Below, piece by piece: positions 10,791 to 44,083 of a DNA stretch of 64,000 nucleotides. The first letter of the stretch is position 1. Every line of letters starts with the position of its first letter. Source of the stretch: Marinitoga sp. 38H-ov. Its GTDB lineage: Bacteria > Thermotogota > Thermotogae > Petrotogales > Petrotogaceae. The stretch covers positions 62,001-126,000 of the forward strand of contig NZ_LNGH01000008.1 of NCBI RefSeq assembly GCF_011057715.1, written 5' to 3'. Both the position numbers and the translations under genes were made by a program. The notes below the pieces were generated by a model. The model worked only from the letters and a program-made list of their open reading frames with translations. It searched no databases and was not told the DNA's origin.

Positions 10791-12587
10791 ATGGCTATTG
10801 TTAAATTACCAGAATCGGTAATAATGAAAATAGCTGCAGGTGAAGTTGTAACTGGAACTTTTGCTGTAGTAAAAGAATTATTTGAGAATTCTATTGATGC
10901 TAAATCCGATAAAATTGTTGTTGAAATAATAGATGGTGGAAAAACATATATTAAAATATCTGATAATGGCGTAGGAATGTCTGAAGAAGATATTTTATTA
11001 TCTGTTCAACCACATACTACAAGTAAAATCAAAGAAGTCGAAGATCTATATGATATACATACTTATGGATTTAGAGGAGAAGCACTGGCTGCAATTTCTA
11101 GAGTTTCTAGAATGAAAATAACCTCTAAAAGAGCAGAAGATGATTTAGCTACAAGTATTGAATTTATAGGATCAGAGCCTATAAATATAAAAAAAGTGAA
11201 TGCTCCTGTAGGCACTACTATAGAAGTAAAAGATTTATTTTTTAATGTCCCTGCAAGAAGAAAATTTTTAAAATCTGCAGCTGTGGAAGGTAGAATGATA
11301 ACAGAAATAATAGAAAAATTCATATTATCTTCTAATTTATCTATTGATTATATAAAAGATGGAAATTTAGTTTATTCTATATCAAAAAATATGAATTTAC
11401 TAGAAAAAATAAATATTATTTTTCCAGAAACAAAAAAAGAAGATTTTTTTGAAATAAACTTCAATGAATCTTGGTTTAAAATTTATGGATTTATTTCACA
11501 CCCTAGAATTACAAGAAATAATAGAACTGCACAAATATTTTTTGTTAATAATAGGTATATAAAATCCGGAGATTTATTTGCAGTTTTTGAATCAGGATAT
11601 GGTGAAATGTTAGAATCTAGAAAACATCCATATGGAATTATTTTTTTTGATATTAATCCTAAAGAAGTTGATGTTAATGTTCATCCGCAAAAATTAGAAG
11701 TTAAAATTTCAGAATCAAGAATAATATATAATAAATTCAAAAGGTTAATTAGAGAGACTTTAATTAATAGTACTAAATTTAAGATAACTATTAATAATGA
11801 AAACCAGTATAATAATAATAATTACGAAAAAAATAATATAACTTATGAAATACCTATAAAATCCAATAAAATAATTGTAGTTTCAGAAAATGTTAATTCA
11901 TACAAAACAAATGAAACTTTGAAAAATACTATTCCTATAAAAATCAATAAAGAAAAATATATTAAAACAGCAAATTTTGAAAAAATATCAAATAATAATG
12001 ATAATAATAAACCAGAACCATATATATATTATAAATTTTTAGGGTTAGTTGCTAATAGATATATTGTTTTAGAGCTAAAGGATTCCATACAATTTATCGA
12101 CTTTCATGCAGCACATGAAAGAGTAATATATGAAGATTTAAAAAAAGAATTTTTTGAAAATGGCAATATCACAACTCAAATACTTATGTTGCCTATTAAA
12201 TTGAATATTGATAACTCTCGAAAAGAAATTTTAGAAAACAATATGGAAAAAATTAGAACTTTGGGTTTTGAAATAAACAAAGAAAATAACGAATATTACA
12301 TCATCGGAACCCCATCCAATATAAGAATAAGCAATCCTCATAATACAGTTATAGAAATATTAGATGAATTAAGACTTGAGGGTATAGAATCACCTGAAAG
12401 AGTTTTTGATAATGTAATTGCTACAATGTCTTGTAGAGCTGCTGTAAAAACCGGAGATTCACCTGTTGGTTTAGATATACTAATAAAAAAAATTATTGAC
12501 TATGATATTCTCACATGCCCACATGGAAGACCTATTTCAATGGAATTGCCATTAAAAAAATTAGATGATTTTTTTGAACGCACTTGA
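10791..12587 (+). CDS. mutL: DNA mismatch repair protein MutL with endonuclease motif
   Basis: Start at ATG 10791 with AGGTGA upstream; an in-frame ATG at 10740 lies inside rlmB and would add a non-homologous tail. About 598 residues. The GHKL ATPase part shows IAAGEVV, ELFENSIDA, DNGVGM and TYGFRGEALAAISRVS. A low-complexity Asn-rich linker follows (around codons 340-420). The C-terminal domain holds IDFHAAHERVIYE, the DxHA(x)2E(x)4E metal-endonuclease motif (with Phe in place of the usual Gln), SCRAAVKTGD and CPHGRPI. It therefore looks like a nicking MutL, as in bacteria without MutH. No mutS is in the window. The stop TGA lies inside the -35 box of the downstream asparagine promoter. Confidence 0.95.
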   Translation: MAIVKLPESVIMKIAAGEVVTGTFAVVKELFENSIDAKSDKIVVEIIDGGKTYIKISDNGVGMSEEDILLSVQPHTTSKIKEVEDLYDIHTYGFRGEALAAISRVSRMKITSKRAEDDLATSIEFIGSEPINIKKVNAPVGTTIEVKDLFFNVPARRKFLKSAAVEGRMITEIIEKFILSSNLSIDYIKDGNLVYSISKNMNLLEKINIIFPETKKEDFFEINFNESWFKIYGFISHPRITRNNRTAQIFFVNNRYIKSGDLFAVFESGYGEMLESRKHPYGIIFFDINPKEVDVNVHPQKLEVKISESRIIYNKFKRLIRETLINSTKFKITINNENQYNNNNYEKNNITYEIPIKSNKIIVVSENVNSYKTNETLKNTIPIKINKEKYIKTANFEKISNNNDNNKPEPYIYYKFLGLVANRYIVLELKDSIQFIDFHAAHERVIYEDLKKEFFENGNITTQILMLPIKLNIDNSRKEILENNMEKIRTLGFEINKENNEYYIIGTPSNIRISNPHNTVIEILDELRLEGIESPERVFDNVIATMSCRAAVKTGDSPVGLDILIKKIIDYDILTCPHGRPISMELPLKKLDDFFERT

Positions 12588-12612
12588 CAATGTAATTATT
12601 TTGTTGTATAAT
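12584..12612 (+). promoter_or_regulatory. Consensus sigma-A promoter of the asparagine synthetase attenuator
   Basis: TTGACA (12584-12589), a 17-base spacer and TATAAT (12607-12612): a perfect consensus promoter, the best in the window. The -35 box overlaps the mutL stop codon. Transcription should start near 12619 and give a leader RNA of about 185 bases before asnA. Confidence 0.92.
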
Positions 12613-12642
12613 AAGAAAAAAATTTTATAGGTGGTGTTACAT

Positions 12643-12711
12643 ATGTTAATTTTTGTCATAAATAATAATAATAATAATAATATAAAACAGCGTTGGTGTA
12701 ACGCGAGGTAA
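12643..12711 (+). CDS. Asparagine leader peptide (22 codons, seven consecutive Asn)
   Basis: A short open frame with a strong ribosome binding site AGGTGGTG six bases before its ATG. It encodes 22 residues: MLIFVI, then seven consecutive AAT (Asn) codons (12661-12681), then a tail with Gln, Arg, Trp, Cys, an eighth Asn (AAC), Ala and Arg, and TAA at 12709-12711. The next gene makes asparagine, so a run of Asn codons is exactly what a ribosome-mediated attenuator needs: low Asn-tRNA would stall the ribosome here. Codons 16-19 form the left arm of the antiterminator. I know of no described Asn leader of this type, but I cannot search. Confidence 0.88.
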   Translation: MLIFVINNNNNNNIKQRWCNAR

Positions 12712-12737
12712 CTCGTTATATACAATCACCGACGCTG
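12688..12737 (+). promoter_or_regulatory. Antiterminator helix of the Asn attenuator
   Basis: CAGCGTTGGTG (12688-12698, inside the leader peptide) pairs with CACCGACGCTG (12727-12737) over 11 bp with a single G-U pair. The right arm is shared with the terminator's left arm, so the two helices exclude each other. A small hairpin CGAG-GTAA-CTCG (12704-12715) sits in the intervening loop. Confidence 0.88.
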
Positions 12738-12764
12738 AATATAATCTATCAGCGTCGGTTTTTT
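12729..12764 (+). terminator. Attenuator terminator before asparagine synthetase
   Basis: Perfect 9-bp stem CCGACGCTG (12729-12737) / CAGCGTCGG (12750-12758), 12-base loop, then TTTTTT (12759-12764). It would end transcription before asnA unless the antiterminator helix captures the left arm. Confidence 0.92.
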
Positions 12765-12803: not shown

Positions 12804-13757
12804 ATGATGCATTCAGAAAGCAGAAAAGTAGACACTGTAGAGTTAGTCAAGGATTATTTAAAAAATCCTATTTTTAGAGATGCAACTCTAATACAATCAG
12901 AAATTTTAAAATGTATTAGAAAAGTTTTAGATGAAAAAGGATTTGTAGAATTATTACCAGTAACAGTTTCACCAATTACTGATCCATTAAACCATCCTCA
13001 TTTTGAGACAGAATTTGAATATTATGGGCAAAAGTATTCTATAACAAAATCTATGATATTGCATAAACAAGTAGCGGTTTTGGTTCATAAAAAGATTTAT
13101 ATTGTATCTCCTAATGTTAGGCTAGAAACAGAAGATAAAATGGAAAGCGGACGTCATTTATTTGATTTTGTACAAATTGATATGGAAATGCTAAACGCAT
13201 CCAGAGAAGATGTATTTGAGGTTATGGAAGATGCTATAATTTATACAATTGAAAAAATAAAAGAAAAATATCCTGATATTATAAAAAAATATCACCCAGA
13301 TCTAAAGACACCTAAAAAACCATTTAAAAGGTATACTGTTAAAGAATTAAAAGAAAAATATGGAGATAATTACGAAAAATTAGCTTCGTTAAATGCAACT
13401 GAACCATTTTGGATGATAGATATTCCACTATTAGAAAGAGAATTCTATGATAAACAAGATCCAAATAGACCAGATGTATTATTGGATTTTGATTTAATTT
13501 ATCCAGAAGGATTTGAGGAAGCTATATCAGGCGGGGAAAGAGAACATGAATATGAACAAATATTAAAAAGAATGAAATTAAAAAATACTCCTTTTGAACA
13601 ATTTGAAGAGTATTTAAAAGTTGCAAAGGAAGGATTACTAGAACATTCTGCAGGTTGCGGTATTGGTATAGAAAGATTTACTAGATGGTTGTTAGCGTTG
13701 GATCATGTTGAAAAAACTCGTTTATTCGCTAAAACTCCCGGAAAGCACTCTATATAA
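12804..13757 (+). CDS. asnA: Archaeal-type asparagine synthetase A (AsnRS-like catalytic core)
   Basis: I start at ATG 12804, eight bases after GGAG of GGGAGAGGG; an ATG at 12786 precedes that site, and ATG 12807 is also possible. About 317 residues. The protein is the class II aminoacyl-tRNA synthetase core of AsnRS/AspRS without the N-terminal OB-fold anticodon domain. Motif 2 is visible in VRLETEDKMESGRHLFDFVQID and motif 3 in GCGIGIERFTRWLLAL. Such paralogues (AS-AR of Pyrococcus) make asparagine from aspartate, ammonia and ATP via aspartyl-adenylate. A true AsnRS is encoded separately at 42785-44083, supporting the biosynthetic role, and the poly-Asn leader upstream supports it independently. 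Confidence 0.88.
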   Translation: MMHSESRKVDTVELVKDYLKNPIFRDATLIQSEILKCIRKVLDEKGFVELLPVTVSPITDPLNHPHFETEFEYYGQKYSITKSMILHKQVAVLVHKKIYIVSPNVRLETEDKMESGRHLFDFVQIDMEMLNASREDVFEVMEDAIIYTIEKIKEKYPDIIKKYHPDLKTPKKPFKRYTVKELKEKYGDNYEKLASLNATEPFWMIDIPLLEREFYDKQDPNRPDVLLDFDLIYPEGFEEAISGGEREHEYEQILKRMKLKNTPFEQFEEYLKVAKEGLLEHSAGCGIGIERFTRWLLALDHVEKTRLFAKTPGKHSI

Positions 13758-13769
13758 AGCACTCTATAT
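13742..13769 (+). repeat. 14-bp tandem duplication at the asnA 3' end
   Basis: AAAGCACTCTATAT occurs twice in direct succession (13742-13755 and 13756-13769). The first copy contains the last codons of asnA and the second lies in the 3' untranslated region. Confidence 0.9.
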
Positions 13770-13792
13770 AATAATATTATCATAATAATATT

Positions 13793-13827
13793 ATCCCCAT
13801 CCAAAAATAATGATGGATGGGGATTTT
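13793..13827 (+). terminator. Terminator after asnA
   Basis: 10-bp perfect stem ATCCCCATCC (13793-13802) / GGATGGGGAT (13815-13824), followed by TTTTATA. No T run on the minus strand, so it serves asnA rather than the convergent receptor gene. Confidence 0.85.
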
Positions 13828-13871
13828 ATAAATTTTATTCTTAATGAATTACAATATTTATACTTTTTTCA

Positions 13872-30853: not shown

Positions 30854-31789
30854 TCACCTCAACACTAAATCAGCAATTTCCAATAATGATTCAGGTATCT
30901 CTATGTTAAATTTTTTCGCAGATTTAATATTAATTAATAAATTTAATGCATTCATATCCATGGTTTTTGATTCTAATTCAGATATTTTTTTACCTTTGAT
31001 TATTTCATTTACAATTTTTCCTGTTTCAAGTCCTAAAGAGTAATAATCAAAACCAAAACCTATAACACTTTTTGCTTGTTTAGCTAATGCAATATCTCCT
31101 GAAATTGAAGGTATAGAATTACTATTTAATATGTCTGACACACTTTCTATTGTAGAAGCTAATAAGTTATCTGTAAAAATATACACAACATCAATATTTT
31201 TTATTTTTGTATTTAAAGAAGTTATCATCTCAGAAGAAGTTGTTCCAGGAATTTCTATAATATTTAATTTTAGATCTTTAGCAAATTTTTTAGATAATTC
31301 CAACAAAGTAATAGAATTTTGCTCTCCTGGATTAAATATTATCCCAACATTTTTAGCATTTGGATATACTTTTTTTAATAATGATAAATGTACATTAACA
31401 GGTAATAAATCACTTAATCCAACAACATTTCCTTCATTTTTACCAAATTTTTTTATTAACCCAGCACTAATTGGATCAGTGACAGCAGAAAACACAACTG
31501 GTTTATCTTTTATGGTATTTACAGCTGCTTGGGCACTTGGCGTTGTTATTGCAACAATAATATCTACTGAATTTTTAAATTCTTGTGCAATAGAAACAGC
31601 ATTTTGATATGAACCCTGTGCATTTTGAAAAACTATTTCGACATTAGAATTTTCCTCTTTAATAGTTTTTATAATCGCATCCTTAACCTGATTTAAAGCC
31701 GGATGATCCACAATTTGTGTAATACCAACTGTTAAAGAAAACCCTAAAGATACAAATAATACAAATAATGATAATAATGCCTTTTTCAT
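30854..31789 (-). CDS. ABC substrate-binding protein (TrpX-like, PF04392)
   Basis: 311 residues from the ATG at 31787-31789 with GGAGGTG upstream; a longer in-frame ORF would run back through the terminator and is not credible. A signal peptide (about 1-18) precedes VGITQIVDHPALNQVKDAI. Other family motifs are ITTPSAQAAVNTIKDKPVVFSAVTDPISAGLI and IGFGFDYYSLGLETGKIV. In Firmicutes such proteins bind tryptophan or tyrosine (TrpXYZ). The leader peptide upstream, with Tyr-Tyr-Trp-Tyr, supports an aromatic amino acid substrate. It starts an operon with the permease and ATPase genes. Confidence 0.88.
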   Translation of the reverse strand: MKKALLSLFVLFVSLGFSLTVGITQIVDHPALNQVKDAIIKTIKEENSNVEIVFQNAQGSYQNAVSIAQEFKNSVDIIVAITTPSAQAAVNTIKDKPVVFSAVTDPISAGLIKKFGKNEGNVVGLSDLLPVNVHLSLLKKVYPNAKNVGIIFNPGEQNSITLLELSKKFAKDLKLNIIEIPGTTSSEMITSLNTKIKNIDVVYIFTDNLLASTIESVSDILNSNSIPSISGDIALAKQAKSVIGFGFDYYSLGLETGKIVNEIIKGKKISELESKTMDMNALNLLINIKSAKKFNIEIPESLLEIADLVLR

Positions 31790-42784: not shown

Positions 42785-44083
42785 ATGGAATGGGTATATA
42801 TCAAGGATATGAAAAAATATATTGGTCAAAAAGTTGAGTTCAGAGGATGGTTATGGAATAAGAGAGCTAGTGGAAAAATTGCATTTTTACAATTAAGAGA
42901 TGGGACTGGTTTTGTTCAAGGGGTTGTTGAGAAAACCAATTTGGGAGAAGAAAAATATTCAGAAGTAAAAAAACTAAAGATGGAAAGTTCTTTAATAGTT
43001 AGAGGTACAGTTGTAGAAGATCAAAGATCACCTGTAGGATTTGAATTACATATAGATGATGTTGAAATTATTCATAATCCAAAAGAAGATTACCCTATTT
43101 CAAACAAAGAACATGGTATTGATTTTTTAATGGAACACAGACATTTATGGGTAAGATCAAGAAGACAATTCCATATTTTAAAAGTTAGACATGAAATTTT
43201 AAAAGCTATTAGAGAATTTTATAATAATAATGGATTTACTTTAGTAGATACTCCTATATTTACAGGTTCTATTGGAGAAAGTGCAGGTAATACATTTGAA
43301 ATAGAATACTTTGATTATGGAAAAGTATACTTAGCCCAAACTGGTCAATTATATTTGGAATCTGCAGCTTTGGCATTAGGAAAAGTATACAATTTAGGGC
43401 CAACATTTAGAGCTGAAAAATCTAAAACTAGAAGACATTTAATTGAATTCTGGATGAATGAAGCAGAAGTTGCATATTATACACATGAAGACAATATGAG
43501 ATTACAAGAAGAATTAGTTTCATATATTGTAAAAAAGATATTAGAAAATGCATCAGAAAATTTAATTGCATTAGATAGAGATATCTCTAAATTAGAAAAA
43601 ATAGAAGCGCCATTTCCAAGAATTACATATACTGATGCAATTAAATTATTAAATAAAAAAGGTTCAGATATTAAATGGGGTGAAGATTTAGGTGCTGATG
43701 ATGAAACATTAATATCTGAAGAATTTGATAAACCTGTAATAATAGAAAAATATCCAAGAGCTGTAAAAGCATTTTATATGCAGCCAGATCCAGAAAATCC
43801 AGATGTTGTATTATGTGATGATATGATTGCACCTGAAGGATATGGAGAAATAATTGGTGCTTCTGAAAGAATTTGGGAAGAAGAAGTATTAATTGAAAGA
43901 TTAAAAGAAAATAATTTACCAATTGAAGAGTATCAATGGTATCTTGATTTAAGAAAATTCGGTTCTGTTCCACATAGTGGATTTGGACTTGGAATAGAAA
44001 GAACTGTTGCATGGATTTGTGGATTAAAACATATTAGAGAAGCAATTCCATTTGCAAGAACATTATATAGAGTATATCCATAA
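42785..44083 (+). CDS. asnS: Asparaginyl-tRNA synthetase
   Basis: 432 residues from ATG 42785 after GGGAGGGAG; an in-frame ATG at 42770 precedes that site. The N-terminal OB-fold anticodon-binding domain (VEFRGWLWNKRASGKIAFLQLRDGTGFVQGV) is followed by the class II core. Motif 1 is near EFYNNNGFTLVDTPIFTG, motif 2 in FRAEKSKTRRHLIEFWMNEAE and motif 3 in GFGLGIERTVAWICG. AsnRS-type features (YLAQTGQLYLESA) distinguish it from AspRS. It charges tRNA-Asn directly, so charged tRNA-Asn level depends on asparagine, the signal read by the leader at 12643-12711. No attenuator is visible here. Confidence 0.95.
   Translation: MEWVYIKDMKKYIGQKVEFRGWLWNKRASGKIAFLQLRDGTGFVQGVVEKTNLGEEKYSEVKKLKMESSLIVRGTVVEDQRSPVGFELHIDDVEIIHNPKEDYPISNKEHGIDFLMEHRHLWVRSRRQFHILKVRHEILKAIREFYNNNGFTLVDTPIFTGSIGESAGNTFEIEYFDYGKVYLAQTGQLYLESAALALGKVYNLGPTFRAEKSKTRRHLIEFWMNEAEVAYYTHEDNMRLQEELVSYIVKKILENASENLIALDRDISKLEKIEAPFPRITYTDAIKLLNKKGSDIKWGEDLGADDETLISEEFDKPVIIEKYPRAVKAFYMQPDPENPDVVLCDDMIAPEGYGEIIGASERIWEEEVLIERLKENNLPIEEYQWYLDLRKFGSVPHSGFGLGIERTVAWICGLKHIREAIPFARTLYRVYP

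Follow-up and report, generated by a model that had tools for sequence, protein, structure and literature searches.

The attenuators of the E. coli trp, his, thr, leu, ilv and pheA operons combine a run of codons for the amino acid that the operon produces with a 1:2 hairpin, a 2:3 antiterminator and a 3:4 terminator, and their stop codon is placed so that a terminating ribosome masks region 2. The comparison of genomes has since led to the prediction of leader peptides for hisS/hisZ in bacilli (PMC2965389), for trp, ilv, leuS and cys in Actinobacteria (PMC1262725) and for cysS in Rhodobacterales (PMC8632094); the first of these studies, from 2010, states that up to its own Firmicutes cases it knew of leader-peptide systems in Proteobacteria and Actinobacteria only (PMC2965389). 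In Firmicutes, asparagine genes can be controlled by the T-box, which also senses tRNA-Asn charging and acts by antitermination, but which recognizes the uncharged tRNA by direct binding, using a large conserved RNA fold and no translation. Here we describe the leader of asnA in a stretch of 64,000 nucleotides from Marinitoga sp. 38H-ov (Thermotogota), hereafter the window. This leader has the same parts as the E. coli attenuators, and its comparison across genomes indicates that asnA is almost certainly switched on when ribosomes run short of charged Asn tRNA.

Concerning the parts of the locus, the initial annotation had described a promoter, a strong ribosome binding site and a 22-codon ORF containing seven Asn codons and one more, and all of them were found in place (Table 1). 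The promoter matches the consensus at 12 of 12 positions, and the additional Asn codon is a single AAC at 12700. The proposed 11-bp antiterminator was borne out by folding: its energy is -23.9 kcal/mol against a mean of -10.2 for shuffled sequences (z -5.4), with none of 200 shuffles as good. The terminator (-18.8 kcal/mol, z -5.9) is also present, with a TTTTTT tract running to 12764, and because of the shared arm the two helices are mutually exclusive, as had been claimed; only its length had to be corrected, the stem having 11 bp from 12728 instead of 9 bp. All the elements of an attenuator are thus confirmed in this sequence. Among the orthologous leaders, a simple pattern search matched a comparable promoter in many cases, Shine-Dalgarno-like sequences recur before the leader ORF, and counterparts of the protector hairpin are present in most relatives. 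The initial annotation had listed neither this hairpin nor the leaders before glnA and amtB and the second attenuator of the window, which are described below.

Table 1. Features of the asnA leader and of related genes in the window
Feature	Position	Strand	Remarks
Sigma-70 type promoter, TTGACA-17-TATAAT	12584-12612	+	TTGACA 12584-12589, 17-nt spacer, TATAAT 12607-12612; overlaps the mutL stop codon (12585-12587)
Shine-Dalgarno AGGTGGTG of the leader ORF	12629-12636	+	strong RBS; read from sequence
Leader peptide ORF, MLIFVINNNNNNNIKQRWCNAR and stop	12643-12711	+	ATG 12643 to TAA 12711; 22 codons
Putative regulatory Asn codons, seven consecutive AAT	12661-12681	+	read from sequence
Antiterminator left arm (region 2)	12688-12698	+	within the leader ORF; folding and covariation
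Antiterminator right arm (region 3)	12727-12737	+	overlaps the terminator 5' arm; folding and covariation
Intrinsic terminator	12728-12764	+	11-bp stem 12728-12738 with 12749-12759, U6; folding and covariation
Protector, local 5-bp hairpin GCGTT-GGTGT-AACGC	12690-12704	+	12690-12694 with 12700-12704; from sequence; would sequester the left arm
asnA, archaeal-type asparagine synthetase A (PRK06462 family)	12804-13757	+	profile and structure matches
Tyr/Trp leader MVTQKLISNINLNNYYWYGKGIHKMTSIPFLLFYR and stop (YYWY)	31999-31892	-	before the trpX-type tryptophan ABC transporter gene
trpX-type tryptophan transporter gene	30854-31789	-	downstream of the Tyr/Trp leader
asnS, asparaginyl-tRNA synthetase	42785-44083	+	NF003037, 572 bits, cut-off 414

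We consider with high confidence that this leader acts as a ribosome-mediated transcription attenuator reading tRNA-Asn charging, and the interpretation given in the initial annotation is to this extent supported by sequence comparison and folding models. Transcription would start near 12619, with a ribosome trailing the RNA polymerase on the leader ORF. When Asn-tRNA is scarce, the ribosome would stall in the Asn run, and the left arm, left free, would capture the right arm before the 3' arm of the terminator is made, so that the polymerase would read into asnA. When Asn-tRNA is plentiful, the ribosome would reach the stop codon at 12709 and cover the left arm, the terminator stem would pair and transcription would end at the U tract near 12764. 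Read-through should consequently change with Asn-tRNA charging.

The gene downstream had been taken for an archaeal-type AsnA, and this assignment holds: the protein scores 421 bits against the NCBIfam equivalog model NF005054 (cut-off 309), it consists of a class II synthetase core without an anticodon-binding domain, and its closest PDB relative is the archaeal enzyme 3p8t. The best start is at 12804, with GGGAGAGGGA upstream. The AsnRS gene, about 30 kb downstream of asnA in the same window, encodes the enzyme making from free Asn the Asn-tRNA that would be sensed, and no asnB was found in the genome of the organism; since AsnRS is encoded and asnB was not found, Asn-tRNA charging should follow free asparagine in this organism. 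Positions 13745-13828 comprise a near-tandem repeat, gcactctatata, carried by the 3' end of asnA, and, beyond it, the inverted repeat CCCCATCC..GGATGGGG together with a T run; the latter probably form a terminator that separates asnA from the chemoreceptor gene convergent with it.

To follow the leader across the phylum, 103 Thermotogota genomes were screened; asnA was detected at E <= 1e-60 in 48 of them and the upstream DNA was taken for all, together with that of a further asnA piece at a contig end in genome G102. Two loci, in G015 and G054, at which the contig ends within the leader or the gene, were left out of the count; to the 48 assessable loci G030 contributes both of its copies, and the G041 leader is included. 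All 48 combine a leader ORF containing Asn codons with an intrinsic terminator and an antiterminator. The ORFs contain from 2 to 11 Asn codons, with at least three consecutive ones at 41 of the 48 loci and the longest runs reaching nine; AAT and AAC are mixed and lie in frame with the ORF led by the Shine-Dalgarno sequence. The weakest clusters are found at one Mesoaciditogaceae locus (DNDN) and at several Mesotoga-group loci (DNN), and it should be noted, as a counter-point, that the latter have only two consecutive Asn codons. The remainder of the peptide, outside the Asn run and the amino acids specified by the RNA arms, shows no conservation, in keeping with a role for the codons and the RNA only. 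Taken by itself, the run of Asn codons would be weak evidence, given that (AAY)6 is found at roughly a dozen sites in the AT-rich genome of the window; the conservation of the Asn leader at all the assessable loci, however, excludes chance. The initial annotation had named the absence of the run and of both helices from orthologous leaders as evidence against its reading. We looked for such an absence, and the Asn run, the antiterminator and the terminator proved to be present throughout Petrotogales and in Mesoaciditogaceae, with compensatory changes.

Genome G041 had appeared as an exception to the conservation, which was rejected when a model based on structure only located its leader about 0.57 kb upstream of asnA; at this locus (L227/L030, G041:C20) an extra stretch of about 0.55 kb, in which no obvious long ORF was noted, separates the leader from the gene. 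In Marinitoga lauensis (L046, G003) the asnA match is in two overlapping pieces in different frames, an apparent frameshift or sequencing error.

Helix covariation was evaluated in two alignments, A2 with 18 sequences of Petrotogaceae and A3 with 24 sequences of Kosmotogaceae, Mesoaciditogaceae and relatives. For the terminator, compensatory changes affect 5 of 11 pairs and 21 cells in A2, a result reached by none of 500 shuffles, and 3 pairs and 24 cells in A3, where again none of 500 shuffles reached the cell count. For the antiterminator, paired cells amount to 93.4% in A2, against at most 56% for slid versions of the helix, and to 99.4% in A3, slid versions giving at most 61% over both alignments. 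The core sequence of A3 is different (AUCGGUC with GGCCGAU), yet the three helices are the same, and its protector hairpin, which lies right after the Asn codons, is 91% paired and shows 11 compensatory cells. The shared arm and the terminator display the strongest covariation; that of the antiterminator is modest by itself, since its pairs are in many cases invariant or G-U. These counts are to be read as support and not as proof, the aligned sequences being relatives of one another and each structure having been derived from a single member.

The geometry of the leader was measured at 46 loci, with distances counted to the beginning of the left arm, which was taken to open region 2. At all 46 loci the cluster of Asn codons begins 17-42 nt ahead of this point and its last codon lies 6-18 nt ahead of it, while the position of the stop codon ranges from 3 nt before to 25 nt after it. 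The same loci were folded with the ribosome footprint blocked out, at 37 C and without considering pseudoknots or growth temperature. A footprint on at least one Asn codon is predicted to allow at least five antiterminator pairs at 46 of 46 loci, and a footprint at the stop codon to remove the antiterminator pairs at 40 of them, the remaining six retaining at least five pairs in the prediction. For the window locus the predicted values are 10-14 pairs with the ribosome stalled on Asn codons and 0 with the ribosome at the stop. Without a ribosome, the antiterminator is predicted before the terminator is complete at 35 of 46 loci, so that transcription uncoupled from translation might continue past the terminator. 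Once the transcript of the window locus is complete and carries no ribosome, the fold with the terminator is the more stable (-35.2 kcal/mol), and therefore the switch must be kinetic and decided during transcription, as in trp.

Taken together, every feature of a ribosome-mediated transcription attenuator that can be checked on sequence is found in these leaders: a promoter followed by a leader ORF with a ribosome binding site, predicted to be translated; a conserved cluster of codons for Asn, the amino acid that the product of the downstream gene makes; an intrinsic terminator upstream of the structural gene; a mutually exclusive antiterminator backed by sequence comparison; and, according to the folding predictions, an antiterminator arm freed by a stall on the Asn codons and masked by a ribosome at the stop.

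Covariance models from which the Asn codons had been left out were run over Thermotogota. They recovered the asnA leaders and also further loci that again carry Asn codons. An NNNNN leader precedes the ammonium transporter gene amtB in five Petrotoga-group genomes (L210-L214, G046-G050), where the P-II gene (glnB) directly follows amtB whenever enough sequence was read. In two Athalassotoga-group genomes, glnA is preceded by NNNNN and NNNNNNNN leaders (L218 in G014 and L221 in G016), and in G100 by an NNN leader (L220); the codons of these three glnA leaders are for Asn and not for Gln. By coordinates, glnA lies directly after asnA in four genomes (G045, G052, G024 and G101). Among the remaining glnA genes with upstream DNA read no such leader was found, so the link to glnA is lineage-specific. 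Less clear relatives, each at a single locus, are a TTTT (Thr) leader before thrS in G054 (L216) and a DDD (Asp) leader before the non-discriminating aspS in G053 (L217), which are possible codon-swapped relatives of the Asn leader. The reading of codons is supported by these two single loci, since the codons are swapped with the gene while the scaffold stays.

The models also matched an NNNNN leader with a terminator about 0.2 kb before a gene weakly similar to phosphoenolpyruvate carboxykinase (L224, G025:C1:791996) and a Tyr/Phe/Trp-rich leader ORF with a terminator before the gene of a branched-chain-type ABC transporter substrate-binding protein (L219, G027:C1:1634619). Five weak matches (L223, L225, L226, L228 and L229) were rejected, as they resemble plain terminators and have no fitting leader ORF.

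From these associations it is possible to hypothesize that Asn-tRNA charging serves Thermotogota as a general nitrogen-status signal, one scaffold with swapped codons (Asn, Thr, Asp) controlling asparagine synthetase, glutamine synthetase and ammonium uptake, and ribosome stalling taking over a share of the role played in other bacteria by proteins of the NtrC or GlnR type. We consider this broader proposal about equally likely to be right or wrong.

Outside Thermotogota, the sample consisted of the best 80 relatives of AsnA in a collection with one genome per species, extended by follow-up searches. Asn leaders are frequent at the bacterial loci among these 80; of the archaeal orthologues in the set, none reaches 4 Asn in 8 codons. 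In Caldisericota, a leader similar to that of Thermotogota is present at five asnA loci and absent at five. In Aminicenantia, an Asn-containing ORF, typically ending with NNNVPF before the stop, precedes asnA at 19 of 19 assessable loci (L260-L263, L268-L282); the stop codon is mostly inside a GUCCCC...GGGGAC hairpin, with no U tract. In Bipolaricaulota, about a dozen asnA loci have NNP...NPNA(P/S)F or NNAP peptides and the rest have none; short ORFs with Asn pairs (NPNAPF, GPANNAP) run into a hairpin of the GCCCC..GGGGC type at L295-L299, L301, L302, L314, L318, L319, L321 and L322. This arrangement is possibly related to that of Aminicenantia, and with their modest Asn content the Bipolaricaulota leaders are suggestive only. 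Since they have no intrinsic terminator, the leaders of these two phyla must use another output, perhaps, as a guess, Rho or translation.

It could be asked whether also in Thermotogota ribosomes do stall on the Asn codons but act mainly through coupling with the translation of asnA, through mRNA stability or by denying access to Rho. The hairpin over the stop codon and the lack of a visible U-tract terminator in Aminicenantia and Bipolaricaulota indicate that Asn-codon sensing can be joined to another output; in Thermotogota, however, the U-tract terminator and the exclusive antiterminator are conserved and covarying, and 92 nt separate the leader stop from the asnA start in the window, so we regard this possibility as very improbable. 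Equally small is the probability that the ORF is incidental and that the leader senses as RNA, in the manner of a T-box or metabolite riboswitch, or is an attenuator bound by a protein: T-boxes and riboswitches also use terminator/antiterminator switches, and clostridial asparagine genes are T-box controlled according to Saad et al. 2012, as cited in PMC4206432, but no Rfam family, the T-box covariance model included, matches anywhere in the window at the gathering threshold, for which reason a T-box or riboswitch was rejected, and instead of a large conserved structure what is conserved are the Asn codons, a small local hairpin and two alternative helices. Finally, there is next to no chance that the run is a neutral AAT repeat, as the other (AAY)6 sites of this AT-rich genome could suggest, and that the terminator only ends stray transcription from the mutL side in a region sitting between mutL and asnA, because this is refuted by the in-frame conservation of the run, with mixed codons in an ORF led by a Shine-Dalgarno sequence, across Thermotogota including the GC-richer Kosmotogaceae, and opposed by the Asn codons that the structure-only model finds at unrelated genes and by the consensus promoter placed between mutL and the terminator.

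The putative attenuator of asnA is accompanied in the window by a second candidate of the same kind. The Tyr/Trp leader ORF before the trpX-type gene is followed by a GGCATCCAC antiterminator arm and then by a GTGGATGCC-AATTA-GGCATCCAC-T7 terminator. With a filter seeking such ORFs, a Trp-containing aromatic leader ORF was found at 30 of 30 Thermotogota trpX loci read, followed by a terminator-like hairpin as judged by eye at these 30 loci. Since the trpX loci also carry aromatic leaders, leader-peptide attenuation looks like a general habit of Thermotogota. An automated scan of the window gave seven further short-ORF candidates beside the asnA and trpX leaders; the two of these seven at 56.7 kb were rejected, being antisense within a coding sequence.

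The initial annotation had known of no earlier Asn leader, and our search of the open-access literature, to which it was limited, likewise found none; asparagine is not mentioned in the surveys PMC2965389, PMC3766115, PMC1262725, PMC4833913, PMC8632094 and PMC1183508. The absence of an earlier report is thus likely rather than proven. If this is correct, asparagine joins the amino acids read by leader-peptide attenuation, and attenuation is placed firmly in Thermotogota, and less fully in three more phyla, at a great distance from the Proteobacteria in which the mechanism was defined. The charging of one amino acid's tRNA would be linked to ammonium uptake and glutamine synthetase, and about 50 orthologous attenuators with apparent codon-swapped paralogues offer a natural series for testing the design rules of attenuation.

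Compared with the systems predicted in bacilli, Actinobacteria and Rhodobacterales (PMC2965389, PMC1262725, PMC8632094), the asnA leader likewise consists of an ORF with an amino-acid run before a synthetase or biosynthesis gene, predicted by comparison; none of those systems, however, reads Asn and none is in Thermotogota. With respect to the E. coli-type attenuators, the asnA leader would read Asn, belongs to Thermotogota and extends to ammonium transport and glutamine synthetase. A further difference concerns the protector, which in Petrotogaceae is formed by the antiterminator arm and the sequence just downstream and not by an arm situated at the control codons. In the f2, f7 and f11 families, on the other hand, the 5' arm of the protector would be occluded by a ribosome standing on the last Asn codon and region 2 would be left free, which is the classical trp arrangement. 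The mechanism would be that of classical ribosome-mediated attenuation; what appears to be new is the amino acid that is read, the phylum in which this occurs and the targets in nitrogen assimilation.
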